Assembly: GCA_022538095.1 (NCBI GenBank) | Contig: JAKYXN010000058.1 | Span: 1-32,212 of the forward strand | Source of the DNA: Puniceicoccaceae bacterium K14 | Lineage (GTDB): Bacteria; Verrucomicrobiota; Verrucomicrobiia; Opitutales; Opitutaceae | DNA length: 32,212 nt | Reading direction: 5' to 3' | In this document: positions 10,526-30,818 of the stretch, one piece after another | Position numbering within the stretch: the first letter of the stretch is position 1 | Layout of the letters: the number at the start of each line of letters is the position of its first letter | Position numbers and translations under genes: made by a program | The notes under the pieces: generated by a model | What the model saw: the letters and a program-made list of their open reading frames with translations, nothing else | Database searches by the model: none | What the model was told of the DNA's origin: nothing

Positions 10526-11831
10526 CGCAGCACTAACACAAGCGGAGCTTCTCGATCTTGAAAAGGATGAGTTAAAGTTCGGCTTTATTAAACTAACAGA
10601 CTGCGCTCCTATCGTAATCGCTAAAGAAAAGGGTTACTTTGAGGACGAAGGTCTTCAGGTTGAGGTTATTGCTCAGCCTAACTGGAAGCAGTTGCTTGAT
10701 AATGTAATTAACGGCGAGCTTGATGGCGCTCATATGCTTTCGGGGCAACCAATTGCCGCGACAATTGGTTTTGGTACTAAGGCGCACATTGTGACTCCTT
10801 ATACCTTGGACCTGAATGGCAATGGCATCACTGTATCCAACGACATTTGGAAGCAAATGCAGGAGAACGATCCAGAGTTGGATACAGATACTCCTCCGCA
10901 CCCAATTACAGCGGACTCATTGAAGCCAATCGTTGATGAGGCGAAGGACGAAGGTAAGTTGCTTCCAATGGGAATGGTGTTCCCTGTATCCACTCACAAT
11001 TATGAAATTCGTTACTGGTTAGCGGCTGCTGGGATTCATCCAGGGATGTACACCTCGACTGATATCAAAGGATTTACAGGAGGCGATATTGAGCTATCAA
11101 CAACTCCGCCACCGCAAATGCCAGCGACACTTGAATCTGGTAAAAACGTAGCTTACTGTGTAGGTGAGCCTTGGAATCAACAAGCAGTTGCAAAGGGGAT
11201 TGGTGTTCCTGTTACAACCAACTACGACATCTGGAAGAATAATCCAGAGAAAGTATTTGGTGTAACGAAGAAGTGGGCAGACGAAAATCCAAACACACTC
11301 ATCGCGGTTACTAAAGCGCTCATCAGAGCAGGTAAGTGGCTTGATGAAACAGACGACGATGGCGATCTCGTTAATCGTGAAGAAGCATGTACAATCCTTT
11401 CCAAGAAGAACTATGTTGGAGCTGATTACGATGTTTTGAAGAACTCAATGACTGGATTCTTCTACTTCCAAAAGAGCGACAAGCGTGAGATGCCTGATTT
11501 CAACGTATTCTTTAAATACCACTCTACTTACCCATGGTACTCAGATGGAGTTTGGTTCCTCACTCAAATGCGTCGTTGGGGCCAAATTACAGAGCCTAAG
11601 ACTGAAGAATGGTACCACGAAACAGCCAAGGAAGTTTACTTGCCAGAAGTCTACTTGGCAGCTGCTAAGCACCTTCTCGAAGAAGGCTATATCGCAGAAG
11701 AAGATGTACCTTGGGATACTGATGGATACAAAGAGCCTACAAGCGATTTCATCGATGGTATCACTTACGACGGTAAGGATCCGGTCGGTTACTTGAACTC
11801 CCACGAGATTGGTAACAAGGACACATTCTAA
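10479..11831 (+). CDS. nrtA: Nitrate/nitrite ABC transporter substrate-binding protein NrtA
   Basis: The exported solute receptor of the ABC nitrate importer, 450 residues. A signal peptide (basic MNILKRS, hydrophobic core, probable cleavage after ALTQA near residue 22) is followed by the binding fold [27 protein letters not shown], then ANGELDGAH-type and [13 protein letters not shown] blocks. GEPWNQQA marks the hinge. Known NrtA/CmpA proteins bind nitrate/nitrite or bicarbonate between two lobes; the neighbouring NarK-type transporter supports nitrate. There is no lipobox Cys, so it should be a soluble periplasmic protein rather than the lipoprotein form known from cyanobacteria. The C-terminal ~150 residues are richer in acidic and aromatic residues than those of the upstream NasS-like paralogue. 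It overlaps the upstream gene by 47 nt, and a hairpin follows its stop. Confidence 0.92.
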
Positions 11832-17133: not shown

Positions 17134-18924
17134 ATGAGTGCTATTGACGCAGATGATGGCTTGGGGCAAGAAAGCTGTAATACCCCACGAATGAAGATAA
17201 ATACGAAGCTAGTCGTTGATGCAGGGTGCTCCACCGATGCAGGCGATAACGACGCGAATGAAGATAGCCTAGGCGTTCGGATTCCAGATGGTTTGGATCT
17301 GGGCCTGAAGGGGATGACGGCTGTGATCGCAGATGGAGTCAGTGCTGCGGAAGCTGGTAAGCAAGCGGCCGATATTTGTGTGAAGGGCTTTTTAAATGAT
17401 TACTATTCTTCACCTGAAGCTTGGACAACTGAAACCGCTGGGATCAAAGTAATAAGTTCGCTAAACCGATGGCTATACAGTTTAGGCCAAGGGTACTCAA
17501 GTGATGGAAGAGGGTATGTTACTACATTTTCTGCACTGGTAGTCAAAGCGATGACGGCTTACGTTTTTCACGTCGGTGATTCTAGAATTTACCGTTTTCG
17601 AAACGGTAAACTAGAAATGTTGACGCGTGATCATTCTGTGAAATTTGGCAAGGGGAATGTGGGCTTAGCTCGTGCCATGGGGATGGATACGAAAGTCGAA
17701 ATTGACGTGAAAAGTATCGCAATTGAGCCGGGTGATTTATTTCTCCTGACAACAGATGGCATACATGGTTTCTTGGATGATTCTGCAATTGCCGCTCATT
17801 TGTCTAAGAATGATCAAAACTTAGATGAGAGTTGCTCAGAATTGGTAGAGCTCGCATTAAAAGGCGGGAGCAATGACAATTGTAGTGCGGTTCTCGTTCG
17901 CATTGAGCAAGCGGGGGTGGCAAGTAATGAGGAAGTGTATAAGCATTTCCGACGTATGCCGTTTCCCCCAGAATTGTATCCGGGAATGATCATTGATGGT
18001 TATGAGGTTGTGAGTGAATTACAGGCGACATCCAGGAGTCAAACTTACGTCGTTAAGGATGGTGACTCTGGGGAGGAGTTTGTCATGAAGACGCCTTCAG
18101 TTAATTATGAGGATGACAATGCCTACATTGAACGCTTTACGATGGAGGGTTGGATAGGAACTAAATTAAAGAGCGATCATTTGGCGGCCTCGGTTAAGCC
18201 AGCACGCGGGCAGACGTTTTTGTATAACTTGCAAGAATACGTGAAGGGGCCAACTCTGGAGGAATGGATGAAGCAAAATTCAAACCCTGACATACGGCGT
18301 GTGATTGAGATAGCGAAGCAAATTATATCGGGGGTACGCGGTATGCACCGACAGGAAATGCTGCATCAGGATTTGAAGCCCGCGAATATCATAATAAACG
18401 AAGATCGAGGCGCGGTAATCATCGATTATGGATCGACGCATGTGCCCAGTATTCAAGAAATTCCGACATCGTTTAAGCGAGAAGTGGCTTTGGGCACGTT
18501 GAGTTATAGCGCTCCAGAATATTTTTTGGGAAGAAAGCCAAACCGGCAGTCTGATTTATTTTCCCTTGGAGTCGTCATTTATGAGATGCTGACAGGGAAA
18601 CTGCCTTATGGCGATTCGTTTGAGAAGTGCAGCTGCTTGCGTGATTTCGTAGCTTTAAAGTATTCGCCTGCAATGCGTTATAACAGACTAATTCCCAATT
18701 GGCTGGATGGTGCTCTAAAAAAGAGCGTTCAAGTTAGTCCTACTGCACGCTATGACTCGTTTTCTGAATTCGAATACGATTTAGAGTTTCCCAACCAAAA
18801 ATTCTTAGCAGCCGATGATTTGCCATTGATGGAACGGAATCCGATTGTTTTCTGGAAAATTGTGGCTGGGGCTTTGGCAGTATCCCAACTTGGGACGTTT
18901 CTGTGGATATTGCTAAGCAGGTAG
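17134..18924 (+). CDS. Membrane-anchored PP2C phosphatase / Ser-Thr kinase fusion
   Basis: A 596-residue bifunctional signalling protein. The N-terminal PP2C domain (about 24-257) has the metal-binding Asp residues in NANEDSLG, IADGVS (Asp67), TTDGIHGFLDD (Asp208) and SNDN (Asp248). The Hanks-type kinase domain (about 285-550) has the ATP lysine in VMKTP (Lys319), the catalytic loop HQDLKPANI (HQD instead of HRD; Asp413, Asn418), DYG instead of DFG (Asp431) and SAPEY. The glycine-rich loop is poor. One transmembrane helix (about 572-594) ends the protein, so both domains face the cytoplasm. Similar kinase genes sit between nasA and nirB in Pseudomonas (PA1782), which supports a role in nitrate assimilation. 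Its proximity to the envelope module next door leaves a second possibility. ATG 17191 is an alternative start. Confidence 0.93.
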   Translation: MSAIDADDGLGQESCNTPRMKINTKLVVDAGCSTDAGDNDANEDSLGVRIPDGLDLGLKGMTAVIADGVSAAEAGKQAADICVKGFLNDYYSSPEAWTTETAGIKVISSLNRWLYSLGQGYSSDGRGYVTTFSALVVKAMTAYVFHVGDSRIYRFRNGKLEMLTRDHSVKFGKGNVGLARAMGMDTKVEIDVKSIAIEPGDLFLLTTDGIHGFLDDSAIAAHLSKNDQNLDESCSELVELALKGGSNDNCSAVLVRIEQAGVASNEEVYKHFRRMPFPPELYPGMIIDGYEVVSELQATSRSQTYVVKDGDSGEEFVMKTPSVNYEDDNAYIERFTMEGWIGTKLKSDHLAASVKPARGQTFLYNLQEYVKGPTLEEWMKQNSNPDIRRVIEIAKQIISGVRGMHRQEMLHQDLKPANIIINEDRGAVIIDYGSTHVPSIQEIPTSFKREVALGTLSYSAPEYFLGRKPNRQSDLFSLGVVIYEMLTGKLPYGDSFEKCSCLRDFVALKYSPAMRYNRLIPNWLDGALKKSVQVSPTARYDSFSEFEYDLEFPNQKFLAADDLPLMERNPIVFWKIVAGALAVSQLGTFLWILLSR

Positions 18925-18939
18925 AGGCAGCTAATTTAG

Positions 18940-19689
18940 CTACTGAACGACGACGTTTTGCTCATTGATGCCTCTCTTTATGAACTGTACGCGTTCGTCA
19001 TCTTCCTTTAGTTTTACGTTTTGCTCACTGTCGCTGTCTTCACCAATATAGTCAGTCGCAGCAGAGGCCATGATCGGTAAGTATTCCCGCAAATCGTCGC
19101 TCTCATCCGTGTTGCGTACGCGCACGCTCCATATTTCGCTAGCGGGCGTGTCTCCTGAGGCTTCTTCAAGTTTGTTTTCGACAGCTACCATTTCGAGATA
19201 CTTCTCGTTTACGATTACTGATACTACCCGTTCTTTGTAGCCTGCGAGTTCGCGCCTCACTCTCCCAGGCACAGATACTTGGTAGAAAGTCGTCTTTCCT
19301 GTTTTAGGGTCGGTGTTAGCTACGGTTCGAATTTCATCAGGCCCTCGAACGCTCATGTAAACGGGCTCTTCAACGACTTTAAATTCTTGTCGAGGAGGCT
19401 CGATGCCGTAATCGATTTCGATGACCATGTCCGCTTTAAGAGGATCGGTTGCTTCGTACATTCCCTTTGCTGAGAGTGCGGTTTTTATCCAATTAACGGT
19501 TTCTTTGTAGCGAAGGTCGTTCGTGTCCGTATCAGGATCGCGCGGGACTAAAACGTAGGAGTCTCCTGCATAATCGATTTCAGGGTTTGTAATTGCGTCC
19601 ACTTCCATTTGGTAAGTGGTTTTACAGCCGTGGACAAACATGCTTATGAGGGCGATGGTCAACAAATTGATGGTGTATTTGCGTTTCAC
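18940..19689 (-). CDS. Lipoprotein, DUF4136-like
   Basis: A 249-residue putative lipoprotein: signal MKRKYTINLLTIALISMFVHGC, with lipobox VHGC and Cys22 as the lipidation site. The mature part has a stretch typical of DUF4136-type lipoproteins: SYVLVPRDPDTDTNDLRY, then a WIKTALSAKGMYEATDPLKADMVIEIDYG segment. In that family the protein binds nothing known but is often paired with other envelope genes. The C-terminal part has a charged tail (SDSEQNVKLKEDDER). It lies 35 nt downstream of the glycine-zipper lipoprotein on the same strand, so both are probably one transcript. It converges on the phosphatase-kinase gene with 15 nt between stops. The DUF4136 assignment is tentative. Confidence 0.8.
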   Translation of the reverse strand: MKRKYTINLLTIALISMFVHGCKTTYQMEVDAITNPEIDYAGDSYVLVPRDPDTDTNDLRYKETVNWIKTALSAKGMYEATDPLKADMVIEIDYGIEPPRQEFKVVEEPVYMSVRGPDEIRTVANTDPKTGKTTFYQVSVPGRVRRELAGYKERVVSVIVNEKYLEMVAVENKLEEASGDTPASEIWSVRVRNTDESDDLREYLPIMASAATDYIGEDSDSEQNVKLKEDDERVQFIKRGINEQNVVVQ

Positions 19690-19724
19690 GGTTGGTCTTT
19701 GTTTGATGATAACGAGAGGGCGTA

Positions 19725-20324
19725 TTACTCTATACTTTCGGTCAAATCTTCCTGCAAATCGTCGGAGCCTTCTAATTCTGCTAATTCTTTTTCGAGGCGA
19801 GCTATTTCATTAAGAGCGTCTTCCTCACGCTGCTCCATTTCGTCGAGCTCACGTTTTCTTTCTAAGGCGGCGTCACGCTTTGCTTGGAGCTTCTTGAGTT
19901 TGGACTCAGCCGATTCTGCACGTTCCGTCACTTCATCTAGCTCTGTTTCACTAATTCGAAATCCCTCGGCTATGTCTAGTTCTTCTTGCAATCGAGCTTT
20001 TTCCTTTTCCTCAGCACGCTTTTGCATGGCAATCGATTGATTGTGGGCACGCTGTTGAGCAAGTGTGTCCTGGCGCTTGCGTTCTTTGCCTTCCTGTACG
20101 GCCCCTATAACCCCGCCAATGAGTGCCCCAGCAGCTCCTCCTGCGATGATGCCTCCGGCGTCTTGCCCAGTTACTGCTGCGCCGATAGCTCCTACGGCAG
20201 CACCGGTACCGGTTCCTTTAGCGGTTTTAGATGCGGCGGGGCCCGCGCACCCAGAATTGAAAAGGAGCACAGAAATGCTTATTGTGAGCAAAATGATCTT
20301 AGAGAATGCTGTGACTCTATTCAT
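19725..20324 (-). CDS. Glycine-zipper coiled-coil lipoprotein
   Basis: A 199-residue lipoprotein with signal MNRVTAFSKIILLTISISVLL and lipobox NSGC (Cys26). Right after the Cys comes a glycine-zipper hairpin (GTGTGAAVGAIGAAVTGQDAGG and GGAAGALIGGVIGAVQEG), as in outer-membrane glycine-zipper proteins, which may insert in or oligomerise at a membrane. The rest (about 85-190) is a charged coiled coil rich in Glu/Lys/Arg/Leu, ending in an acidic tail (ELEGSDDLQEDLTESIE). It is the first gene of a two-gene lipoprotein unit that diverges from the MotA/ExbB-like gene across a 251-nt intergenic region. This position suggests it supplies the outer-membrane side of the neighbouring machine (inference). 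Confidence 0.85.
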   Translation of the reverse strand: MNRVTAFSKIILLTISISVLLFNSGCAGPAASKTAKGTGTGAAVGAIGAAVTGQDAGGIIAGGAAGALIGGVIGAVQEGKERKRQDTLAQQRAHNQSIAMQKRAEEKEKARLQEELDIAEGFRISETELDEVTERAESAESKLKKLQAKRDAALERKRELDEMEQREEDALNEIARLEKELAELEGSDDLQEDLTESIE

Positions 20325-20513
20325 GCGTTATTGAAAGATTACGATTGAAGAGGAAAATTGGATTCGCCGATTGGGTAGATTTGTTGAAACTAATTGGAAA
20401 GTAGACTCGTATAACATTTAGCTGTTTCCGAAAAATTGCAATTTCCCAATTGTGATTGAGTAGGCTCCCTAATAAATTAGTAAAAACGCAAGAGAGTTCG
20501 TATTGTGTGCGTT

Positions 20514-20519
20514 TATAAT
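20514..20519 (+). promoter_or_regulatory. Candidate -10 box before the MotA/ExbB-like gene
   Basis: A perfect TATAAT lies 57 nt before the ATG at 20576 in an AT-rich stretch, but no convincing -35 box is found at 16-18 nt. The divergent 20325-20575 region should also hold the promoter for the two lipoproteins. Confidence 0.35.
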
Positions 20520-20575
20520 TTAAATGAATTGTTAGTATAAGAGGTCTTAAGATATAGTATGGCACATTACGACAT

Positions 20576-21430
20576 ATGAAGAAAAAAGGGTTTTATTCGC
20601 TAGATTTTGTAATAATTGCAACGGGGTTGCTACTGTCTGTGTTGGTGGTAAATTTTGTTTACGAGTTGTATATCCGCCCGCTTGCGCAGGACATCGAGAT
20701 CACAAGCCGGCTCCAGAGCACTCAAAACCCTGATAAGTCCTTCGCCACGAATCGGTCGCTTGCGATCATAGTGAAAGACTACGAACAGCAAGTGTGTATT
20801 AGCCTTATGATGTGGGCTAGCGTTATAATTGGGTACAAGTTTATTAAGATTCGAAGGGAATCGTCTATGTTGAGTAAGCCGTTTTTAAGAATGTCCCGCG
20901 GGGAGCGAATTTTGCCGGAAGACGCTTTATCGCACTACAAAGAAGTTGAGGGGAAAGTGAGTGGAGTTTCAGGGTTAGCGGATAGGATCTTACCAGATAT
21001 CATTATGTCCGCTTTGCATCGGTTTGACTCGACTCGCTCGATACAGGATGCCGCCCATGCGGTGAAAGAGAGGGCGGAGTTGGCTTACGAAAAATTAGAG
21101 TCAGATTTGTCGCTGGTTCGGTATATCGCTTGGGCGATTCCATCGGTTGGGTTTATTGGAACGGTACGCGGTATTGGTGAGGCTCTTGCACAAGCGGACC
21201 AAGCCATCAGGGGAGATATTGAGGGCGTAACATCGTCGCTTGGATTAGCGTTTAATTCAACGTTGATCGCTCTTTTTCTTAGTATTATTCTAATGTTCTT
21301 CGTGCATTTGCTTCAGTCGAAACAAGAAACTTTGCTTATCGAGTTGGAAGACTTCGTTTCGCGAAATATCGTTGGCTTGATGAAGACCCCCAATAAGGAG
21401 GAAGAAACGAGCTCAGTGAGTTTTAGCTAG
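20576..21430 (+). CDS. MotA/TolQ/ExbB-type proton-channel subunit
   Basis: A 284-residue inner-membrane protein with hydrophobic helices at about 9-31, 72-90, 183-200 and 223-245, the layout of MotA-like stator subunits. The C-terminal half carries the family core: WAIPSVGFIGTVRGIGEAL (around 186-204) and the GVTSSLGLAFNSTLIALFLSIILMF helix (about 217-241), followed by a cytoplasmic helix LLIELEDFVSRNIV. In TolQ, ExbB and MotA these two helices line the proton path with a partner that supplies an Asp. Here the partners are most likely the two vWA proteins of the same operon, which have an Asp in their single membrane helix. The first two helices are less typical and are separated by a ~40-residue loop. 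It is the first gene of a four-gene operon. Confidence 0.88.
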   Translation: MKKKGFYSLDFVIIATGLLLSVLVVNFVYELYIRPLAQDIEITSRLQSTQNPDKSFATNRSLAIIVKDYEQQVCISLMMWASVIIGYKFIKIRRESSMLSKPFLRMSRGERILPEDALSHYKEVEGKVSGVSGLADRILPDIIMSALHRFDSTRSIQDAAHAVKERAELAYEKLESDLSLVRYIAWAIPSVGFIGTVRGIGEALAQADQAIRGDIEGVTSSLGLAFNSTLIALFLSIILMFFVHLLQSKQETLLIELEDFVSRNIVGLMKTPNKEEETSSVSFS

Positions 21431-21449
21431 AGAGAAACAAAAAATCTAA

Positions 21450-22919
21450 ATGACGACACTGGGAATTGAGTTAAGCGATGTAGGGATCTCTTGCGTCCAG
21501 CTAAAGGAAGACGGAAACTCTGCTTCAGTGAAGCTGGGTGTTCAATCGGACCACTTTCCAGCATATGCTTTGGCGGCGAACGGAACCTATGTTTTTGGGG
21601 CAAAAGCTCAAAGTGTATCCAGAATTTATCCGCGACGCGTGTGCTCTGAATTTTTGGATAACATTTCGTTCCAAACGTTGAAATTAGACGGAGCAGCAGG
21701 GCGTATTACTTATTCTCAGCTTGCTCATAAATTCGTAGGTGAACTTGTTACTCGGATACGTGTCCATTGCGACGAAATTGATCGTATCATTGTAGCGGTG
21801 CCTGGCAATTACTTGGAAAGCGATGAAAAGTCGGAGGAGCGTTTGGGCTTACTGCTTGCAATACTGCAAGATTACGATTTGCCGTTGGCGGGAATTATTG
21901 ATTTGGCGGCGGCTTCCCTTTATAGTGACGGCTTAGGCACTGTGCCCGAAGGCGATAGTGTTTTCCACGTCGATCTCTTGTTACATGCTACAAATATTAC
22001 AGTTTTTAATAAGAGGGCGGGGTTGCAGAGAGTTTATTTTTCGCATCAACCACAACGGGGCTTCGCCAAAATGCTGGAAAGGTTTTCAGGTGCATTGGCC
22101 AATCGATTTTTGAAGCATACCGCCTTTGATATTACTGAGGATCGACAGATCGAACAAGCATTTCATGCTCAGACGAATGACATGCTTTTTAATCTCGGTC
22201 AGATTGAGGAAGCAAGTATTGAGGTAACGACGAAAGATATTTCAAGGCACATGTCGATCACTCGAGATTCGGTTTCCTTGGATCTTGCTCCGCAGGTTAA
22301 ATTACTCACACAAACACTGCTTCGAGCCATTAATGATTTCGGCAGAGAAAGTAGTCGCGTGCAAATAATTTTGTCCCATAGAGCTGCGGCCGTTCATGGC
22401 TTGAAAGAGTCAATACAAGCGCAAGACGTAGGTCATGTTCGCGAATTGCCCGTTGAAAGCGCTGCCTTTGGCGCAGCTAATTTGGGGAAGAATTGGGCAG
22501 TTTGCGAAAATGTCGAAACCGTGCGCGTTGAAACGGGAATCGCTCAGCCTAATTTGATGAACGATGGCTCTGATGAGGCGAGGTTTTCCCTTTGCTCGAT
22601 TAGTTTGATTAAGAAAGGGAAGTCACTCGCGCCTTCTCATATTGTTTGTGATGGGCTTGCTTATGAACTGGTCGAGGACGGTTTTATCATTGGTTTAGGT
22701 GAGAGCGAGCGTTTTCATTTGGTTGTCGACCGCCATGGCTTGGGCGAGCCCGGAGAGCTCGCTAGGCTGGTTAAGAAAAACGAGCGTTGGGTGTTGGTTG
22801 AGAAGAGTAGTGAAAGCGTAGACGTTGATTCGCTTTCAGGTGTTCGTGCAGGCGATGAAATCGAGGTGACTATTCGAGGGCGACGTAAGAAGTTATTACT
22901 CATTCACTGCATGCAGTAG
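21450..22919 (+). CDS. Actin/Hsp70-fold ATPase-like protein with possible FHA-like C-terminus
   Basis: A 489-residue cytoplasmic protein. The first ~345 residues follow the order of the actin/Hsp70/FtsA/PilM fold: an N-terminal beta-hairpin (GIELSDVGISCVQL, phosphate-1 position), RIIVAVPGNY (113-121), the connect-type helix DLAAASLYSDG, a phosphate-2 position HVDLLLHATNITVF, and an adenosine-motif-like VQIILSHRAAAVHGLKES (304-321). The phosphate loops lack the usual glycines, so nucleotide binding may be weak or lost. The last ~95 residues (about 395-489) have an FHA-like strand pattern (FIIGLGE...FHLVVDR...RWVLVE...VRAGDEIEVTIRG) but lack the phosphothreonine-binding Arg, Ser and His. It lies 19 nt after the channel gene and 29 nt before the first vWA gene, clearly in the same operon. 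Confidence 0.72.
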   Translation: MTTLGIELSDVGISCVQLKEDGNSASVKLGVQSDHFPAYALAANGTYVFGAKAQSVSRIYPRRVCSEFLDNISFQTLKLDGAAGRITYSQLAHKFVGELVTRIRVHCDEIDRIIVAVPGNYLESDEKSEERLGLLLAILQDYDLPLAGIIDLAAASLYSDGLGTVPEGDSVFHVDLLLHATNITVFNKRAGLQRVYFSHQPQRGFAKMLERFSGALANRFLKHTAFDITEDRQIEQAFHAQTNDMLFNLGQIEEASIEVTTKDISRHMSITRDSVSLDLAPQVKLLTQTLLRAINDFGRESSRVQIILSHRAAAVHGLKESIQAQDVGHVRELPVESAAFGAANLGKNWAVCENVETVRVETGIAQPNLMNDGSDEARFSLCSISLIKKGKSLAPSHIVCDGLAYELVEDGFIIGLGESERFHLVVDRHGLGEPGELARLVKKNERWVLVEKSSESVDVDSLSGVRAGDEIEVTIRGRRKKLLLIHCMQ

Positions 22920-22948
22920 GTAGCCCCGTTTATGTCGAGATACATAGA

Positions 22949-24016
22949 ATGAAGTTTAAGCGACGCAGTACAGAAGTATTCAGTTTGTCATTCTTGGACT
23001 GTATTTGTTGTGGCTTTGGAGCTGTATTGCTTTTGTTTGTACTAACAGCTGGAAACAAGGCATCTATTTACAGTACGATCGAAGCCAAAATCTCACAAAT
23101 TATTGGCGAAATGACAGATTCTATCGCTAAGAAAGATAAGGAGTTAGAGACCTTGCGGGCGTACCTTTTAGACGTCAAAGATGAGCACGAAGAGATATCG
23201 ATTGAATTGGATGAAAAAAAGAGCCTACGTACCGATTTGGACGATTCCTTAGCGCTACTTATGAAAGAGTTGGCATTGATTGAGGAAGCCCTTGGCAAGC
23301 TTATGAAAGATAAGGAGGAGATTCCCAAGGTCGAGGAAAAGCCTCCGATTCCTATTCCAAATGAAGAACGAAGGCAGTATTTGACAGGCTTCGACATGAA
23401 GGGAGATCATATTTTATTTCTCGTGGAAGCGTCCGGTAGTATGCTTGACGATGAGGTAACCAAGGCGGCCGAGCGATTGCAGGATGAAGATGAGGAAAAG
23501 AAAAAGGCTCCTAAGTGGGTGCGTACGAAAAATGGCCTTCAGTGGCTGATCGCAAACTTTGTAGATAAAACGACGCGTTACAAAATAATATTCTTCAACA
23601 ATGAATTACATCCACTCGAAACAGACTCCGGAGGCACTTGGCATGATCCTTTTAATGCGGATACGACGTTAGAGGTATTAGACTTAATCGATGAAATAGT
23701 TCCAGGCGAAGGGGCAAACCTGGAGATAGCATTTGATATTGTGGATGATCTCGATGTTGTACCTAACAGGATCGTTTTAATCGCAGATGGCTTGCCCACC
23801 TTAGCGGACTCTTATTCTAAAGCAGGTTTGTTAAGCGATGTTGACCGTATCAATATGTTTCGTGCGGCAAAGAAAATTTTACTCTCAGGAGTTCCGGTGA
23901 ATACTATTTTGTACCCTATGCTTAACGACCCGGCAGCCGCCGTGCATTTTTGGAGGCTGAGTAACGAACGAGGAGGAGCGATGGTCTGTCCTTCGGAGTC
24001 TTGGCCTGATATATGA
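22949..24016 (+). CDS. TolR/ExbD-like membrane segment + coiled coil + vWA domain protein (vWA-1)
   Basis: A 355-residue protein in four parts. A short basic N-terminus (MKFKRRSTEV) precedes one membrane helix FSLSFLDCICCGFGA...LLLFVL (11-32) with Asp17 inside, which recalls the proton-carrying Asp helix of TolR, ExbD and MotB. A periplasmic coiled coil (about 40-125) and a Pro-rich hinge (EEKPPIPIPNEE) lead to a vWA domain (about 150-355). The metal-ion (MIDAS) motif is EASGSM, with Glu160 in place of the usual Asp, and the Thr position reads GEGANLE, so metal binding may be altered or lost. A later strand, RIVLIADGLPT, is typical vWA. The stop overlaps the start of its paralogue by 4 nt (ATGA). 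It is predicted to work with the MotA/ExbB-like channel protein. Confidence 0.88.
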   Translation: MKFKRRSTEVFSLSFLDCICCGFGAVLLLFVLTAGNKASIYSTIEAKISQIIGEMTDSIAKKDKELETLRAYLLDVKDEHEEISIELDEKKSLRTDLDDSLALLMKELALIEEALGKLMKDKEEIPKVEEKPPIPIPNEERRQYLTGFDMKGDHILFLVEASGSMLDDEVTKAAERLQDEDEEKKKAPKWVRTKNGLQWLIANFVDKTTRYKIIFFNNELHPLETDSGGTWHDPFNADTTLEVLDLIDEIVPGEGANLEIAFDIVDDLDVVPNRIVLIADGLPTLADSYSKAGLLSDVDRINMFRAAKKILLSGVPVNTILYPMLNDPAAAVHFWRLSNERGGAMVCPSESWPDI

Positions 24017-25104
24017 AAAAGAAGCGATCAACAGAGATTTTTAGTTTATCGTTCCTTGACTGTATATGCTGTGGTTTTGGGGCAATAATTTTGTTATTTG
24101 TTATATCAATGGGTGTGCAGACACGACGTATCGATGATTTGAACGATGTGTTGGAGACAATGATACAGCAACGAATTGCCAAGTTAAATGAGTACCAACT
24201 CGCTACTGAGGACTTGAAATTGTCGATTTCTATGTTCGAAACTGAAACTGCGAAGAAAAAGGATGAAATAGAAGAGTTGGATGCAATGATAGCTGAGCTT
24301 AAGCAACAGATACTCAATAACTCTAGCAGTAAGGATAAGTACCTGGTGGATATTGAACAGCTAAAAAAAGAGGTTGCAGCGATGCAGAAAGAGGCTGATG
24401 TCGAGCAGGTTGTAATCAAGCCTTCGCCGGTGGGCGTGCCGGTAGATAGCACTCATATCGCTTTTGTTATAGACACATCGGGTAGTATGAGGGATGAGAG
24501 CTCAAACCTCGTGCGGAGATATGTGGTACAAAAATTTCAGGAATCATTAGAAGCTTACCCTCAAGTTGATGGCATACAATTACTCGATGCTAGCGGCCAC
24601 TTTATTGTAGGGCGTACGATGGCAAGTAAATGGATCGAGGATACTCCGGAGAATCGCATGCTATTACTTAGAGCAATTCGATTGTATCCGAGAAATAGTG
24701 ATAGCAATCCTGTTCCAGGAATCGTGCGTGCGATTCGGCTGTTACATGATCCTGAAAACGATGATATGAAAATGGGGATCTATGTTTTTGGAGATGAATT
24801 TACTGGAAAGTCAGATCCAGTTTTGAGGACGATGCTCCAAATAAATAAAGATAAGAAAGGGGAGCGAATAAGCCGAATCAATGCGGTTGGCTTTCCAAAT
24901 GTAATTAGTCCGGGAGTGACTTTAGGACTAAGCCAATCGGGTCTGAAGTTTGCCAATTTGATGCGTGAATTAACCTTTGCCCATGGAGGAGCCTTTATTG
25001 CCCTGCAGCGAGAAGGCTTTAGGGATGAAGAAAGGCCTTTACCTGGGGTGCCCAATATTCCTCAACAGCCCAGAGCTCAGCCTCGAGTTGTTTGGCCGTA
25101 TTGA
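24013..25104 (+). CDS. TolR/ExbD-like membrane segment + coiled coil + vWA domain protein (vWA-2)
   Basis: A 363-residue paralogue of the preceding gene with the same order: a basic start MKKKRSTEI, a membrane helix FSLSFLDCICCGFGA...LLFVIS with Asp16, a coiled coil (about 38-128), a hinge and a vWA domain (about 145-345). Here the MIDAS motif is canonical, IDTSGSM (Asp154, Ser156, Ser158), so this copy should bind a metal ion and probably a ligand. A Pro/Arg-rich tail (PGVPNIPQQPRAQPRVVWPY) ends the protein. The membrane helix is almost identical in protein to vWA-1, although most of its codons differ by synonymous changes, so the duplication is old and the helix is under strong constraint. 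Start and stop of the pair overlap by 4 nt. Last gene of its operon; it converges on a minus-strand gene after 23 nt. Confidence 0.9.
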   Translation: MKKKRSTEIFSLSFLDCICCGFGAIILLFVISMGVQTRRIDDLNDVLETMIQQRIAKLNEYQLATEDLKLSISMFETETAKKKDEIEELDAMIAELKQQILNNSSSKDKYLVDIEQLKKEVAAMQKEADVEQVVIKPSPVGVPVDSTHIAFVIDTSGSMRDESSNLVRRYVVQKFQESLEAYPQVDGIQLLDASGHFIVGRTMASKWIEDTPENRMLLLRAIRLYPRNSDSNPVPGIVRAIRLLHDPENDDMKMGIYVFGDEFTGKSDPVLRTMLQINKDKKGERISRINAVGFPNVISPGVTLGLSQSGLKFANLMRELTFAHGGAFIALQREGFRDEERPLPGVPNIPQQPRAQPRVVWPY

Positions 25105-25127
25105 GTGGAAAACTTTAACTGTGAAAA

Positions 25128-25532
25128 TTATTCAACAGATCTCACGTTTTCCGAATCGTCGGTCGATTCAAAATTTCTGAAATCAAATCGAATGATGTCT
25201 ACCACGCTAGAGCTGAGGCTTGGGCTTTTGAGTACGGACGCGAGGCGAATTTGCTCAAGAGTCGCTTTTTGAATACGAGCGAATTCCAAGTCATCGAATG
25301 GGCCGAAAAGGTAGGTGAGTTGTTCGTGTCCATAGCGTACATACCATCCGATATCGACTAAGCCGATTCCTGTGATGTCGATGCCTGGATAACGTTTATC
25401 ATAAGCGGCTTTGTTGAGACGAGCGCTGTCTTGAATTGCTTCTGCAGGGTACACAATTGTTTTGGGCGTTTGAGCATTTAACAAAGTTGCTATGCTCAAT
25501 ACAGCCAATGGGATAAGTATTCTTTTTATCAT
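25128..25532 (-). CDS. Small secreted protein, unknown function
   Basis: A 134-residue protein with a clear signal peptide (MIKRILIPLAVLSIATLLNA, cleavage about after residue 20). The mature part contains GLVDIGWYVRYGHEQLTYLFGPFDDLEFARIQKATLEQIR and an acidic end (FESTDDSENVRSVE). I recognise no family. It starts 2 nt after the stop of the Gly/Ser/Gln-rich gene, so it is translated from the same transcript as that gene and the TPR gene. It probably acts in the periplasm with the neighbouring envelope module (inference from position). Confidence 0.75.
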   Translation of the reverse strand: MIKRILIPLAVLSIATLLNAQTPKTIVYPAEAIQDSARLNKAAYDKRYPGIDITGIGLVDIGWYVRYGHEQLTYLFGPFDDLEFARIQKATLEQIRLASVLKSPSLSSSVVDIIRFDFRNFESTDDSENVRSVE

Positions 25533-25534
25533 AG

Positions 25535-26305
25535 CTACAGTCCTTGAGGCATTTGGACCCCTTGTTCCGTTCCAGTTCCTCTTCGCGTACTTCCTTGTCC
25601 GTTACCCATATCGCCGGGCATCTCTTGGTTGTCGCTTTCACCTTGTTTCCCATCTCCAGATTCGGCAGAACCTGAGCTCTTGCTAGAGTTTTGGTTTTTC
25701 TGGCTGGATTCACTGCCCTCGCCAGTATCGATTTCGCTACCCTCCAGCCCTGACTGTTCACCAATCGGAATATCGGGAGGAGGAGGAGGAAACTGTCCTG
25801 TGGGTGAGTTGCCTATTTGCCCTTGGCTCTGGCCTTGCCCTTGGGGGAGTTGCATTTGACCGCTTTCGCCTGATTGTCCGCCTTGTCCTTGAGGGAAGGG
25901 GAGCGAGCTTGATTGTTGTCCATTGCTGTTGCCGCTACCGCCGCCACCTCCGAAGATTGGAGGTATTCCACTCGAGCCACCACTCATAGATACGCCACTG
26001 CCACTGCTTCCTGATTGGCCTATCGGAAGACTTATTCCGGAGCCCGTTTGGCCTATGGGTAAATTTATCCCTGAAATTTGCCCGATCGCTGGTAGTTGAC
26101 TTTCGTCTACGACACTAATCATTCCCCCCAGCGGGTCGTTGACAGTTTGTACATCTTGAATCTGATCTGCATTTCCGTTGCCGCCCGCGCCATTTTTTGT
26201 GGCGTCAAAGATATCTGGGTCAGGATCGAATGCGAGGGTCACGCCGATAGGATATAAAAACAATAGCGTGGTCGATTTTAGTAGGCGATGACGTTTCGTG
26301 TTCAT
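25535..26305 (-). CDS. Gly/Ser/Gln-rich secreted low-complexity protein
   Basis: A 256-residue protein. The N-terminal 25 residues (MNTKRHRLLKSTTLLFLYPIGVTLA) form a signal peptide, and the rest is strongly low-complexity. Short repeats of LPIGQ-Gly/Ser type lie at about 80-100, followed by a Gly run, a QGQGQSQGQ stretch, FPPPPPDIPIG, and an acidic Ser/Glu part. No folded domain is visible. Such composition fits a flexible linker, adhesive or surface protein. The frame is open for 256 codons in phase with its neighbours, so it is a real gene. It lies between the TPR gene (12 nt upstream) and the small secreted protein (2 nt downstream). Confidence 0.8.
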   Translation of the reverse strand: MNTKRHRLLKSTTLLFLYPIGVTLAFDPDPDIFDATKNGAGGNGNADQIQDVQTVNDPLGGMISVVDESQLPAIGQISGINLPIGQTGSGISLPIGQSGSSGSGVSMSGGSSGIPPIFGGGGGSGNSNGQQSSSLPFPQGQGGQSGESGQMQLPQGQGQSQGQIGNSPTGQFPPPPPDIPIGEQSGLEGSEIDTGEGSESSQKNQNSSKSSGSAESGDGKQGESDNQEMPGDMGNGQGSTRRGTGTEQGVQMPQGL

Positions 26306-26317
26306 TTTTTACTTTTT

Positions 26318-28021
26318 CTATTTGGCTCGTTTGTCGCAAATTACGCTAAGAGGCTCTTGGGTTGTTCCGCCTCTAATAATTAACGAGTAACGCACACTTT
26401 CATATTTATTTTTCCTACCACGTATAAGGTAGCGGCCTGGGAGTAAATTGAAGGTTTCTTTTTCAAGTTTTGCAGGCTTTTGTTTTGATGGGCCTTCGAT
26501 GCTGACCCATGTTTGGTTATCTGAAGAAATTTCTATCGAAACGGGTTTGCTTTGCAGCTGAAGGTAGCGGCGTAAGTTTTCGTTTTCAGGAGTGAGAGCC
26601 AAGTAGGCAGGCTTGGATTTCATTGCGGAGTCAAAGGTCCTAATTGAGCGCTGGAAGCTTAAACTTTTAGCTTCAACTTTTGCCACCTCTATGAGCTTTT
26701 CGTAACGCAGGATTGTGCGTATCATTTTTCCCGTACGGAGCATTCCGTTTTTTGCTTCTTCCAATTCTGGCTCTATCTCTAAAAGCTCTTCGTAGATATT
26801 TCTAGCCGCTTTCCATTGGTATTCGTGTTCAAGCGAATAGGCCTGAGTTACCATGCTTACGATATCGCTTTGCCGTTTATCGGCTTTTGTTTGACCGATT
26901 GCATCGGCAATATCCGTTCGAGTGGGAAAGACCTCCAGGGCCTTTTCTAAATGTTCAATCGCATCGTCGTACCGTAGGTCGTTTAGTGCATTGGCCGCTG
27001 AAGTATAGTGAAAGTTAAAGTCTCGGTTTTCAATTTTTCGTCTAACTCGGGAGACGCCTTGTTGCGACTTTGCAGATCGGCTATCTATGGCGAAGGCTTG
27101 TTCGTAGTTTTCTAGTGCTTCTTCGAGTTGTCCTTGGTCTTCGTTTAGTTTTGCCGCAAGGAGTAGAGAGTGAGTCTTCTTAGCGTATTTTGCTCGCTCG
27201 AGCTGGATTATGGCGTCCTCGTTGTCCGGAGCCATTTTTAAGACGTTCATAAAGGCTGCGATCGCTTCTCCACCCTGGCCTTGAGCAATTAAGCGGTGCC
27301 CCTGAGAGGCATTTTTTTGAACGTATTCATTTATTGAATTTTCAAGATCGCTTAGAAAGACTGCAGCTTCATCTAATTTGCTTTTTGCTATTGAGAAGGA
27401 GCCAGCATCTAAGAACTGCTTGCCGGTACTCGCAGCTTCAAATGCAGCTTCATAAGCGGCTTCGTTTAGATACTTCTTATCTTCTGAATATTCTACACGG
27501 GAGAGGAAACTATCGTAGAGTTCTCGAGAAGTTTGTTTGTTTTTAACCTCTTCTGAAAAACCATCAATGAGTTCGCTCACTCGATCGTATTGGGTAAGCG
27601 CTTTTGCATAGTTAGAACGCTTCATGAATGTTTCTGCGAGAAGGAATTCTTTTTCGACAGCGATTAGTTTTTGGGTAAGAACTTGGTGATTGGCTGGCAT
27701 TTCTCGGGCCGCCTCAATTTTTTTTGTTGTGGTTTCCTGTGCGAAATCTGCTTTTGAGCGGCTTACAAATGCTTCCTGGATATTTGGTTCGCCGGGACTC
27801 GCTTGACCGTCTCTTTCGTTATCACCAGCGTTTGTTTGCGTTGAAATGGCGTAAAACCCTAGTCCTCCTGCAACTAATATTGCGGTGATGGCGACGACTC
27901 CAAAGATCAATAGCTTCTTACTTGAAGACGACTGGCTCTCTAGCTTCTCCTCGTCTTCAGGATTCCAGTGGATTACTTTATGTTTTTTGGGTGAATCGGA
28001 AGAATTTTGGCTCATCGACAT
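26318..28021 (-). CDS. Membrane-anchored TPR protein with C-terminal PEGA-like beta domain
   Basis: A 567-residue protein. A ~35-residue cytoplasmic N-terminus (with KVIHWNPEDEEKLES) precedes one membrane helix (37-59). A helical region with several TPR units follows (clear ones: GGEAIAAFMNVLKMAPDNEDAIIQLERA, GQLEEALENYEQAFAIDSRSA, LRYDDAIEHLEKALEVFPTRT, YQWKAARNIYEELLEIEPELEEA; about 250-430). The C-terminus (about 485-567) is a beta-sandwich resembling PEGA-type domains (ISSDNQTWVSIEGPS, LLPGRYLIRGRKNKYESV). The repeats should face the periplasm and bind protein partners or cell wall. It is the first gene of the minus-strand operon that converges on the vWA operon. ATG 28015 is an alternative start. 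Confidence 0.88.
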   Translation of the reverse strand: MSMSQNSSDSPKKHKVIHWNPEDEEKLESQSSSSKKLLIFGVVAITAILVAGGLGFYAISTQTNAGDNERDGQASPGEPNIQEAFVSRSKADFAQETTTKKIEAAREMPANHQVLTQKLIAVEKEFLLAETFMKRSNYAKALTQYDRVSELIDGFSEEVKNKQTSRELYDSFLSRVEYSEDKKYLNEAAYEAAFEAASTGKQFLDAGSFSIAKSKLDEAAVFLSDLENSINEYVQKNASQGHRLIAQGQGGEAIAAFMNVLKMAPDNEDAIIQLERAKYAKKTHSLLLAAKLNEDQGQLEEALENYEQAFAIDSRSAKSQQGVSRVRRKIENRDFNFHYTSAANALNDLRYDDAIEHLEKALEVFPTRTDIADAIGQTKADKRQSDIVSMVTQAYSLEHEYQWKAARNIYEELLEIEPELEEAKNGMLRTGKMIRTILRYEKLIEVAKVEAKSLSFQRSIRTFDSAMKSKPAYLALTPENENLRRYLQLQSKPVSIEISSDNQTWVSIEGPSKQKPAKLEKETFNLLPGRYLIRGRKNKYESVRYSLIIRGGTTQEPLSVICDKRAK

Positions 28022-28299: not shown

Positions 28300-29097
28300 A
28301 TGAAGTTTAAATTGTATGCTACCGTTGTGTCGTCCCTGGTATTTACTCTACTTTTAACAAATTGTAGTACTACACCTGTTACGGGTAGGAAGCAGATGAA
28401 TTTGGTCTCGGAATCTGAAGTGGTTCGCATGTCGATGGCCTCTTTCGAGCAAATGAAAGCTCAGCTAGCTATTTCTTACGACCCGGAATACAATGAAATG
28501 ATGCAGCGGGTGGGGCATAAAATTTCACAAGAAGTTTTTTGGGATGTGCCGCTCGCCGAATGGGAATTTGTGATATTCGATGCTCCGCAGGTGAACGCAT
28601 TCGCTATGCCGGGCGGAAAGGTCGGTATTTATACTGGGCTTTTTCAGATCGTAAAGACTGAGGATGAACTCGCTTCCGTTTTAGCTCATGAGATTGCTCA
28701 TGTGAGTGCCCGGCACACGCACGAGCGAATATCGCAAGCAATGATAGCTGAAGCAGGGAATACCACCTTGGGTGTTGTCGGACTGATGTCCGTAGGTAGC
28801 TTAGCCACCTCGGGCATAATGAGTATTTATAATGTAGGAGCGACTGGCGCGGTGGCGGCATGGGATCGGAAAAAGGAAAGCGAAGCGGATGAAATTGGGA
28901 TGATTTATATGGCCCGTGCGGGATACAATCCAGAAGCTGCTATTACTGTAATGGAAAGAATGGTACAGCTAGATGGGGGATCTTCCGATCCTTGGTACTC
29001 GACTCACCCTTCGTCCTCAGAACGTTTGGATGCGATGCATGGCGTCTTAGAAGAAGCGGTTGAAGAATATGAAAAAGCAAAGGAATTTCAGTTTTGA
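28300..29097 (+). CDS. M48-family lipoprotein metallopeptidase (LoiP/YggG-like)
   Basis: A 265-residue zinc protease for envelope quality control. Signal MKFKLYATVVSSLVFTLLLTNC with a lipobox-like LTNC (Cys22) makes it a probable lipoprotein, as is LoiP. The catalytic HEIAH (130-134) and the third ligand in ESEADEIG (Glu193...Asp197) are intact. The block VNAFAMPGGKVGIYTGLF is the typical M48 pre-catalytic strand, and THPSSSERLDAM is the typical C-terminal motif. The length and domain order match LoiP (YggG), and there is no TPR tail as in BepA. Its substrates are damaged or misassembled outer-membrane proteins in E. coli; the role here is by analogy. It diverges from the TPR gene across 278 nt in which I see no clear promoter. 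Confidence 0.95.
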   Translation: MKFKLYATVVSSLVFTLLLTNCSTTPVTGRKQMNLVSESEVVRMSMASFEQMKAQLAISYDPEYNEMMQRVGHKISQEVFWDVPLAEWEFVIFDAPQVNAFAMPGGKVGIYTGLFQIVKTEDELASVLAHEIAHVSARHTHERISQAMIAEAGNTTLGVVGLMSVGSLATSGIMSIYNVGATGAVAAWDRKKESEADEIGMIYMARAGYNPEAAITVMERMVQLDGGSSDPWYSTHPSSSERLDAMHGVLEEAVEEYEKAKEFQF

Positions 29098-29222
29098 TGC
29101 TTTTCTTGGCTTTGAAATTTGGCAGTGTGACGAGAAGGTAAATTCAAATTGGGCTATGCAACGTATACTTGACAGTGCTTTAAGTTAGATTGCCTTGTTC
29201 TATTAAGAAAAACGATACCTCA

Positions 29223-30017
29223 ATGTTTACGAATCTCATCAGCTCTTACCAACGCATCAGGGACTTTATCCCGCCTTCGCCGACCTCGGCTTATCGTGTT
29301 CGGCTAGCGGAGAATCTCAAGGATGTAAACGCGGCTCAGAAACTCCGTTTTCGTATCTTCAATGAAGAACTGGGTGAAGGCTTGAAAGCTTCAGAGGCAA
29401 CCGGTTTGGACCAAGATCGATTTGATGAGGTGTGTGACCATTTGCTTATTGAGCATGTTAACGATCAATCTATCGTGGGAACGTATCGCTTGCAGACAGG
29501 TGAGAATGCCAAAGCAAATTTTGGCTATTATAGCGAGCAAGAGTTCTGTTTCGAACCTTTTGAAGGTATTCGTTCCAAAACCGTGGAACTCGGGAGAGCG
29601 TGCATTTCTAAAGAACACCGAAATATGGTTGTTTTGGGCCTATTGTGGAAAGGGATTGCTCAGTACACCAAAGTCTACGGAGCACGCTATTTGATTGGTT
29701 GTAGCTCATTGACTTCGACGGACCCCGTAGAAGGCATTGCAGCTTACGAGAAGCTAAAAGATTGTTTGGTAGAAGATCGGTTTCAGACAGAACCGACAGA
29801 TCGCTTTCGTATTACCATGACAGATTCCGATCGAATTCGATTGCCGGAAGCCTGCCGTTCTGTGGCGATCCCTCGCTTAATGCGGTCTTATTTGACACTT
29901 GGGTCCAAAGTCTGTTCTCCGCCTGCTTTAGATCGAGAATTTAAGACAATAGACTTTCTCACATTTCTAGATTTGCAGAATTTGGCTCCACGAGCATTGA
30001 AAAAGCTTCTTGGCTAA
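29223..30017 (+). CDS. GNAT-fold N-acyltransferase, OlsB-like
   Basis: A 264-residue protein of the GNAT acyltransferase group that includes OlsB (ornithine N-acyltransferase, using acyl-ACP). Clear pieces are the LRFRIFNEELGE start block, GLDQDRFDEVCDHLLIE, IVGTYRLQTGENA, ELGRACISKEHR and LIGCSSLTSTDP, all typical of OlsB-like ('hemolysin'-annotated) proteins. OlsB makes lyso-ornithine lipid, which an OlsA-type acyltransferase then acylates; a PlsC-like gene follows 48 nt later. The chosen ATG follows a TTG at 29190 that would add 11 unlikely residues. The acyl acceptor (ornithine or another amino acid) cannot be read from sequence. Confidence 0.85.
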   Translation: MFTNLISSYQRIRDFIPPSPTSAYRVRLAENLKDVNAAQKLRFRIFNEELGEGLKASEATGLDQDRFDEVCDHLLIEHVNDQSIVGTYRLQTGENAKANFGYYSEQEFCFEPFEGIRSKTVELGRACISKEHRNMVVLGLLWKGIAQYTKVYGARYLIGCSSLTSTDPVEGIAAYEKLKDCLVEDRFQTEPTDRFRITMTDSDRIRLPEACRSVAIPRLMRSYLTLGSKVCSPPALDREFKTIDFLTFLDLQNLAPRALKKLLG

Positions 30018-30065
30018 GCTGACTGAGGCTTGTCAGAAAGAAATCTGTTGTTTTGATTTCAAAGT

Positions 30066-30818
30066 GTGGAGACGTTTTTGAGACCCTTACGACGTGTGCA
30101 GCGTTTATCGCACATGTTAGTTGTTTTTGGTTTTGCAGGCTTGGATTATCTAATTCGTAGAGGCAAATATTGGAATTTACCCCAACGGTCCCAGTGGCTG
30201 AAGAAGTGGTCGAGTACCCTAGTGAGTGGTATGGGGTTCGATATTCATGTGATCGGAACTCCTCCGGAGAAGGGGTTTGTTGCCCCGAATCACCAGAGCT
30301 ACATGGACATACTTGTACTGAGCTCCGTAACGAATTTGAATTTTCTGTCCAAAAGCGAGGTAAGGAAGTGGCCATTGATTGGGAAATATACAGAGATGGC
30401 TGGTACTGTTTTTATCGATCGCAGCAGAAAGCGTGATGTGGCTAATAAAAATGATGCGTTTGGGAGAGCGATCGATGAGAGTGTCAGCTTGACGATATTC
30501 CTGGAAGGAACTTCCACAAATGGAGAAGAGGTCCTTTCTTATAGGAGTTCGTTGCTGCAGCCGATGGTTGAAAACGATTGGCCAATCACACCGGTGTACA
30601 TAAAATACGATTGTGTGGGCGGGAGCGTCGCAGACGAGGTTTGTTGGTGGGGGGACGCAGAATTTACACCACACCTTGTTAATATGCTAGCATTGCCACG
30701 AGTGAGTGCGACGATTGTTTTTGGTGAAATGCGTACGGTCGGTGGACGTGATCGAAAAGAACTGGCGGTTGAGTTGCGAGAGGATGTATTGCGTTTACGG
30801 AAACAAGTTGAATCGTAA
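30066..30818 (+). CDS. PlsC-family lyso-lipid acyltransferase (OlsA-like by context)
   Basis: A 250-residue acyl-transferase of the PlsC family. Motif I NHQSYMD (NHx4D), motif II GTVFIDRSRKRD, motif III FLEGTST (instead of FPEGTRS) and motif IV ITPVYIKY are in order. The N-terminal ~30 residues are hydrophobic (LVVFGFAGLDYLI) and should sit at the membrane. The Pro-to-Leu and Arg-to-Thr changes in motif III, which contributes to phosphate binding in PlsC, argue for an acceptor other than lysophosphatidic acid. With the OlsB-like gene just upstream, an OlsA role (lyso-ornithine lipid to ornithine lipid) is the best guess. It starts with GTG. Confidence 0.88.
   Translation: METFLRPLRRVQRLSHMLVVFGFAGLDYLIRRGKYWNLPQRSQWLKKWSSTLVSGMGFDIHVIGTPPEKGFVAPNHQSYMDILVLSSVTNLNFLSKSEVRKWPLIGKYTEMAGTVFIDRSRKRDVANKNDAFGRAIDESVSLTIFLEGTSTNGEEVLSYRSSLLQPMVENDWPITPVYIKYDCVGGSVADEVCWWGDAEFTPHLVNMLALPRVSATIVFGEMRTVGGRDRKELAVELREDVLRLRKQVES

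Follow-up and report, generated by a model that had tools for sequence, protein, structure and literature searches.

Why should an envelope operon encode a proton channel of the MotA/TolQ/ExbB family and two proteins with von Willebrand factor A (vWA) domains, with no TolR- or ExbD-type gene beside them? Motors of the 5:2 type driven by the proton motive force (PMF) are few and well studied, namely the flagellar stator and the Ton, Tol, Agl and Gld systems. The operon lies on a Verrucomicrobiota contig of 32,212 nucleotides from Puniceicoccaceae bacterium K14 (JAKYXN010000058.1, here called the window), in an assembly of 5.72 Mb in 358 contigs that is 97.36% complete. A first-pass annotation had placed nine genes for envelope-type proteins at positions 18940-28021, and all nine are present where it put them. 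We consider it likely that the channel and the two vWA proteins, which we term V1 and V2, form a PMF-driven inner-membrane motor of the TolQ/ExbB/MotA type, in which the pair V1 and V2 moves in place of the TolR/ExbD/MotB dimer. Among named records, those closest to V1 come from Opitutales/Opitutaceae.

The central operon

The four central genes run in the order channel, Hsp70-like gene, V1, V2 on the plus strand; 19 and 29 bases separate the first three, and V1 and V2 overlap by 4 bases.

20576-21430, plus strand: MotA/TolQ/ExbB-like proton channel subunit (PF01618 at 1.3e-15)
21450-22919, plus strand: degenerate Hsp70-type ATPase domain (about residues 1-351) with an FHA-type C-terminal part (about 382-489), from a fold model and profiles
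22949-24016, plus strand: V1, with an Asp-bearing membrane helix, a coiled-coil stalk and a vWA head (about residues 151-355), from a structure model and alignment
24013-25104, plus strand: V2, with the same kind of N-terminal Asp helix and a vWA domain, from the sequence; overlaps V1 by 4 bases

The family match bears out the MotA/TolQ/ExbB core that the first-pass annotation had seen in the channel.

Co-occurrence of the channel and the vWA pair

Relatives were collected in two ways. The 80 scan loci were retrieved with DNA patterns derived from the helix itself and are the best 80 among at least 566 relatives; because of this origin the conservation of the helix is biased in the scan set, and the fair samples are those found by profile. 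These comprise 194 Verrucomicrobiota genomes, drawn evenly, and 230 genomes of the class of the marine gamma proteobacterium HTCC2080 (G194, L080). The presence of genes in loci was judged by six-frame profile searches. Alignments used 61 of 71 Hsp70-like, 74 of 81 V1, 73 of 79 V2, 66 of 73 channel, 58 of 64 TPR and 47 of 51 FGE proteins, after near-copies, fragments and likely off-target TPR matches had been left out.

V1 was found by profile in all 80 scan loci, and 71 of these have the channel gene immediately before V1 or before the Hsp70-like gene. In seven loci the contig ends before the channel would be reached (L021, L024, L031, L051, L059, L072, L088), and two loci (L025, L065) do not contain it. 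Going by the titles of the records, the full four-gene order is present in Opitutales/Opitutaceae, Kiritimatiellia, Desulfobacterales and other deltaproteobacterial, acidobacterial and gammaproteobacterial records. Since the order recurs across phyla, the arrangement is far beyond chance.

In the Verrucomicrobiota sample, the 15 genomes (of 194) that have V1 at E up to 1e-10 are precisely those that have the channel subfamily at E up to 1e-40; V1 occurs in 17 of the 230 genomes of the HTCC2080 class. All 32 V1-positive genomes of the two samples carry the channel subfamily, in agreement with the earlier proposal that channel and vWA pair are one unit. A vWA pair that regularly occurs without the channel, named there as the case that would speak against this, was looked for in both samples and not found. 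Among the 31 sampled loci with V1, 29 also hold the channel: it follows V2 in L111 and otherwise adjoins either V1 or the Hsp70-like gene. It is missing from L113 and from L100, where the contig ends; both genomes have the channel elsewhere. In one genome (G158) a lone channel gene sits inside a contig at L104 8270-9088 and is followed by an open reading frame of 1271 residues, and V1, V2 and the Hsp70-like gene are on L100, whose contig ends just before the expected channel position.

A putative proton path and a missing partner

The channel residues Thr196 (21161-21163) and Thr229 (21260-21262) align with T145 and T178 of TolQ in a profile alignment against PDB 8odt (E 0.0024), a comparison of sequence only in which the positions were counted by hand. 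Both threonines are invariant in 66 of 66 aligned channels. In TolQ they form a threonine ring that, according to PMC8928145, is proposed to stabilise protonated TolR D23.

V1 and V2 have one predicted membrane segment each (residues 15-33 and 17-35), with an Asp at its start: D17 in V1 (22997-22999) and D16 in V2 (24058-24060). This Asp, which the first-pass annotation had pointed out in the window proteins, is kept in all 31 V1 and all 28 V2 proteins of the profile-found samples. It is also present in 74/74 V1 and 73/73 V2 proteins of the pattern-found set, where it is partly built in by the search pattern. The helices of the window proteins, SLSFLDCICCGFGA, contain no His.

The usual carrier of the proton-binding residue is missing from the surroundings. 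PF02472, the ExbD/TolR family, has 11 matches in the window's genome, none of them on the window contig (C312) or on the contig of a second motor set (C300). Across the 15 V1-positive Verrucomicrobiota genomes, none of the PF02472 matches listed is closer than about 48 kb to V1 on its contig. The earlier statement that no ordinary TolR or ExbD lies nearby thus stands; by PF02472 there is no tolR/exbD-type gene beside the operon, with MotB's own domains not searched genome-wide. V1 and V2 themselves match neither PF02472 nor any peptidoglycan-binding Pfam family.

Stalk and heads of V1 and V2

The model of V1 (mean pLDDT 87.6) is a single helix of 110 residues (15-124) followed by a vWA head, in line with the coiled coil and vWA outer domain proposed before. 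At 1.5 A per residue the modelled helix is about 16 nm long, with about 13 nm beyond the membrane. The head superimposes on solved vWA domains with a Z score of 16.5 and a root-mean-square deviation (rmsd) of 2.8 over 168 residues. By family models the domain is hard to see: the window V1 has no Pfam vWA match and the window V2 only a weak one (0.016), and at 0.01 VWA_2 is matched by 50 of 74 V1 and 27 of 73 V2 rows. The DxSxS motif of the metal-ion-dependent adhesion site (MIDAS) is intact in all 73 V2 proteins. Among 74 V1 rows the first position of this motif holds D 38 times, R 19 times and E 17 times; the window protein has E. The two heads therefore differ, one with an intact metal site and the other with a variable one.

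Relation to known ion-driven motors

The first-pass annotation had called the system undescribed, and this claim has to be withdrawn for its core. The main text of PMC12204202 (Williams-Jones et al. 2025) predicts that pairs of membrane-tethered vWA proteins serve as the rotors in 5:2 motors of a TolQ-only type. The second vWA family treated there co-occurs very tightly with tolQ homologues without tolR or exbD, consists mostly of heterologous pairs, and is found in Proteobacteria and Verrucomicrobia; its TolR-like helix carries a conserved Asp and was modelled inside the pentamer (Fig. 4c,d, TPH-vWA). As far as that text describes them, the TolQ-only TPH-vWA motors share with our locus the linkage of channel and vWA genes, the heterologous vWA pair, the Asp helix, the threonine ring (judged from primary structure) and the lack of tolR/exbD by PF02472. 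The window locus fits every feature tested; it was matched by description and not by the Idiomarina sequence. The motor-and-rod core is thus already in print. In contrast to what we find, the main text of PMC12204202 contains no Hsp70, PEGA, sulfatase, kinase, chaperone or formylglycine, has 'fha' as FhaC only, and names a TPR gene only for the other, edge-binding vWA family. A later review (PMC12905483) cites the study, as does PMC12842022, and 'vWA' does not appear in the main text of that review. Besides PMC12204202 we recognised no description in the open-access literature, where most records were judged by titles and the beginnings of abstracts.

Compared with the TolQR, ExbBD and MotAB stators, the channel family, the threonines of the proton path and the Asp in the single N-terminal helix of the partner are the same, whereas the partner here is a heterologous pair with a coiled coil and vWA heads. 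V1 and V2 might instead stand beside the channel as transducers like TolA or TonB, with another small protein giving the proton-carrying helix. We regard this as unlikely. A precedent exists in the edge-binding vWA family, which is predicted in the main text of PMC12204202 to work as a membrane-tethered transducer, and an Asp in a helix is by itself no proof of insertion into the pore. However, the membrane helix of that family carries a His within an SHLS motif, and its genes lie next to a tolR-like pair (same source), while the His is missing from the window helices and no PF02472 gene lies nearby among the matches listed. An acidic residue in a membrane helix would also be odd if it faced lipid, and here it is conserved in every V1 and V2 protein of the profile-found samples.

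A degenerate Hsp70-like subunit with an FHA-type tail

The product of 21450-22919 had been described as a cytoplasmic actin-fold protein. It does belong to the actin superfamily, but the fold is specifically that of the Hsp70 nucleotide-binding domain in a degenerate form, an FHA-type tail had gone unseen, and the protein is no evident filament former. Its model (mean pLDDT 88.8) superimposes with residues 1-353 on Hsp70 ATPase domains (Z 34.7, rmsd 3.0 over 345 residues). No match to the Pfam Hsp70 family was found among 61 Hsp70-like rows at 0.01. The phosphate-binding loops of Hsp70 carry the motifs DLGTT and DLGGGT; the loops of the window protein read ELSDVG and DLLLHAT, and the glycines are mostly lost across the 61 rows. 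Because of this loss the protein is probably not an ATPase, and an active ATPase or a filament-forming actin was rejected on the same ground. It also differs from Hsp70/DnaK in that an FHA-type tail replaces the substrate-binding domain. The C-terminal part matches FHA-bearing chains by profile (EmbR, 3.4e-06), and 19 of 61 relatives match FHA PF00498 at 0.01, the window member not being among them. The strict phosphopeptide-binding pattern IGR...SRxH occurs in none of the 61 rows.

The gene was found by profile in 70 of the 80 scan loci, and five loci (L020, L048, L067, L079, L089) lack it, with the channel directly adjoining V1. Three loci of one Verrucomicrobiota family (L101, L102, L103) hold the channel, V1, V2 and a diverged glycine-zipper neighbour, with no Hsp70-like gene between.

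A possible mechanism

The observations suggest an assembly in which the channel would form a pentamer around two N-terminal helices, one from V1 and one from V2. Protonation of the helix Asp residues, which would face the ring of T196 and T229, might then turn the V1/V2 pair. The membrane helix would run unbroken into the long coiled-coil stalk and carry the two vWA heads towards the peptidoglycan or the outer membrane. There the V2 head, with its metal site, and the modified V1 head could pull on or remodel their partners. Candidates for these are the lipoproteins and the TPR protein encoded around the operon and, in other lineages, a PEGA-FGE protein. The Hsp70-like/FHA protein may act as a regulatory adaptor in the cytoplasm rather than as an ATPase. 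Taken together, the best reading of the system is a trans-envelope PMF force transducer.

Several points weigh against a motor of this composition. The structures are single-chain predictions of V1 and of the Hsp70-like protein, so the 5:2 stoichiometry and the placement of the helices rest on inference. The membrane part of the V1 model is of low confidence, with residues 1-13 and 15-17 below a pLDDT of 50. In profile-profile comparison the V1/V2 helix gave no significant match to the helices of 20 ExbD proteins from the sampled genomes; descent of the helix from TolR/ExbD is thus unsupported, and position and chemistry agree by eye only. In four genomes (L025, L065, L113, G158) the channel is not beside V1, one strong match lying elsewhere in each. 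The Hsp70-like gene was found by profile in 19 of the 31 sampled loci and not in the other 12, and in five Verrucomicrobiota loci (L093, L094, L095, L097, L098) only about the first 200 residues of it match, and weakly; the gene is therefore frequent and dispensable and stands outside the obligate core. Finally, we found no functional data on the motor genes in the open-access literature.

Flanking genes and the output of the proposed motor

The operon is flanked by two lipoprotein-type genes, divergent from it, and by three genes that converge on it (small secreted, Gly-rich and TPR proteins). A peptidase gene follows that recurs as a neighbour in other loci.

18940-19689, minus strand: lipoprotein with weak DUF4136 similarity (5.5e-06, below the Pfam cut-off; Pfam scan), lipobox-like signal by eye
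19725-20324, minus strand: glycine-zipper lipoprotein (below the Pfam cut-off; Pfam scan), divergent from the channel gene, lipobox-like signal by eye
25128-25532, minus strand: small secreted protein with an N-terminal hydrophobic segment, without a Pfam family at 0.1
25535-26305, minus strand: Gly/Ser/Gln-rich exported protein with an N-terminal hydrophobic segment, without a Pfam family at 0.1
26318-28021, minus strand: TPR protein with a single membrane segment at the N-terminus (37-55), from a Pfam scan and membrane-segment prediction
28300-29097, plus strand: M48 metallopeptidase, lipobox by eye; a recurrent neighbour whose membership in the system is uncertain

For the scan loci we distinguish an Opitutia group, a grouping by hand of L010-L044, L071 and L072 in which some records are titled Verrucomicrobia only, from the 43 others. 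In the Opitutia group the DUF4136-like lipoprotein is kept beside the operon in 29 of 37 loci, a glycine-zipper protein flanks it in 30, and the TPR gene was found in 11, many loci being cut short by the contig. Outside the group a TPR protein (34 of 43) and a PEGA-FGE protein (37 of 43) are encoded, usually upstream of the operon, and 30 of the 43 loci have a lipoprotein of about 410 residues. The profile-found samples have the TPR gene in 5/14 and 11/17 loci and the FGE gene in 2/14 and 14/17. An N-terminal Ser/Thr kinase domain is present in some relatives of the TPR protein (14 of 58 scanned), and of 47 FGE proteins scanned all match FGE-sulfatase and 46 match PEGA. The lipoprotein and TPR partners named by the first-pass annotation are thus there, but the DUF4136-like and glycine-zipper lipoproteins were found in Verrucomicrobiota loci only; elsewhere TPR proteins (sometimes with a kinase), PEGA-FGE proteins and other lipoproteins occur.

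The output of the motor would most likely lie in maintaining or reshaping the outer membrane or its attachment. A replacement of the Tol-Pal system was considered as well, and here the data are uninformative, since TolB_N (PF04052) occurs in only 3 of the 194 Verrucomicrobiota genomes, none of them V1-positive.

Another output that we think possible, if doubtful, is an envelope assembly or quality-control station in which motor-driven vWA heads would handle outer-membrane proteins or lipoproteins together with an M48 peptidase. M48 genes do recur close by in two phyla (10/37 Opitutia-group and 9/43 other scan loci, 3/14 and 2/17 in the samples), and lipoproteins flank the operon in many loci. 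Yet most loci lack an M48 neighbour in the stretch covered, and one of the 19 lies 11 kb away.

A gliding or surface-adhesion machine with adhesin-like vWA heads has a slim chance only. Its model would be AglRQS-Glt of Myxococcus, where, according to PMC3169522, a TolQR-type motor is coupled to TPR and other envelope proteins; the term 'FHA domain' occurs in that paper too. Both systems combine a TolQ-like channel with two different partner proteins and with TPR and other envelope partners; however, as described there, AglQ and AglS belong to the ExbD/TolR family, which is absent here, and are not vWA proteins. The intact metal site of V2 (73/73) would suit adhesion. Against gliding speaks that the operon is found in lineages such as HTCC2080 and Woeseiaceae, in which we know of no gliding.

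An anti-phage defence system related to Zorya is very improbable. Zorya consists of ZorA and ZorB with ZorC/ZorD or with ZorE. The channel does match ZorA models distantly (4.8e-07), but TolQ scores similarly (4.7e-08), the partner here is a vWA protein, and none of the ten proteins scanned matched ZorB, ZorC or ZorD. The window's remaining genes are ordinary (nitrate-type uptake, MutS, acyltransferase) and gene order is stable within clades. Zorya or other defence was rejected, since beyond the distant ZorA similarity the ten proteins gave generic matches to kinases or coiled coils only; that the first-pass annotation had set Zorya aside agrees with this. Conflict systems of the vWA/MoxR or GTPase/Hsp70 kind were also rejected; the main text of PMC7159879 on these contains no MotA, ExbB or TolQ.

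Second motor sets

The window's genome carries a second full set on contig C300 (L005 1-13748), in which genes for a TPR, a PEGA-FGE, a coil-rich and one further exported-type protein precede channel, Hsp70-like, V1 and V2. The two channels are 35% identical over their full length, and the second Hsp70-like protein is recognised by profile (E 1.1e-07 over 442 columns). All four V1/V2 proteins of the genome share the block FxLSFxDCICCGFGA. The upstream genes of the second copy resemble the proteobacterial arrangement, and in the channel tree this copy forms a separate long branch outside both large clades, a placement that is unsure due to the branch length. A CsgG-family gene also lies near this set (L005). 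HTCC2080 (G194) likewise has a second, very diverged set at L121 6333-8976 (V1 158 bits), with FGE and channel genes and without an Hsp70-like match.

Other genes of the window

A PP2C phosphatase fused to a Ser/Thr kinase is encoded at 17134-18924, adjoining nitrate-type uptake genes. Because the gene clusters of the other loci hold no relative of it, its position beside the motor may be chance. Further upstream (9341-11831) two tandem NMT1_2 (nitrate-type) binding proteins are followed by a permease and two ABC ATPase genes. Downstream, at 28300-30818, genes for the M48 peptidase, an Acetyltransf_5 protein and an acyltransferase stand in a row; the latter two resemble genes of ornithine-lipid synthesis, as we presume. 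Scans for promoters and terminators gave site numbers no higher than in shuffles.

What the system may mean

With the motor-and-rod core in print, what seems new within the open-access literature is the frequent Hsp70-like/FHA subunit, along with partners of the kinase-TPR and PEGA-FGE kinds. The same holds for the difference between the metal sites of V1 and V2, for the exact co-occurrence at genome level and for the presence of two deeply diverged sets in a single genome. The Hsp70-like/FHA subunit and the fusions of kinase and TPR domains point to regulation by phosphorylation, which to our knowledge has not been described for Ton or Tol; a phospho-regulated, Hsp70-containing machine was not found in the open-access literature. 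We tentatively propose, as a possibility and not as our expectation, that the loci represent a widespread class of trans-envelope PMF motors. The rotor would be an obligate heterodimer of V1 and V2, in which one head binds metal and the other often does not; a nucleotide-dead Hsp70/FHA adaptor would sit on the cytoplasmic side, joined in some lineages by Ser/Thr-kinase-TPR and PEGA-FGE proteins; and protein phosphorylation would switch the work of the motor. The conserved gene set, the marker Asp in each rotor protein and the presence of two copies in one genome offer direct tests. If V1 and V2 are indeed the rotor, the output of the motor would be a directly driven pair of stalked vWA heads, without a side arm of the TolA or TonB type.

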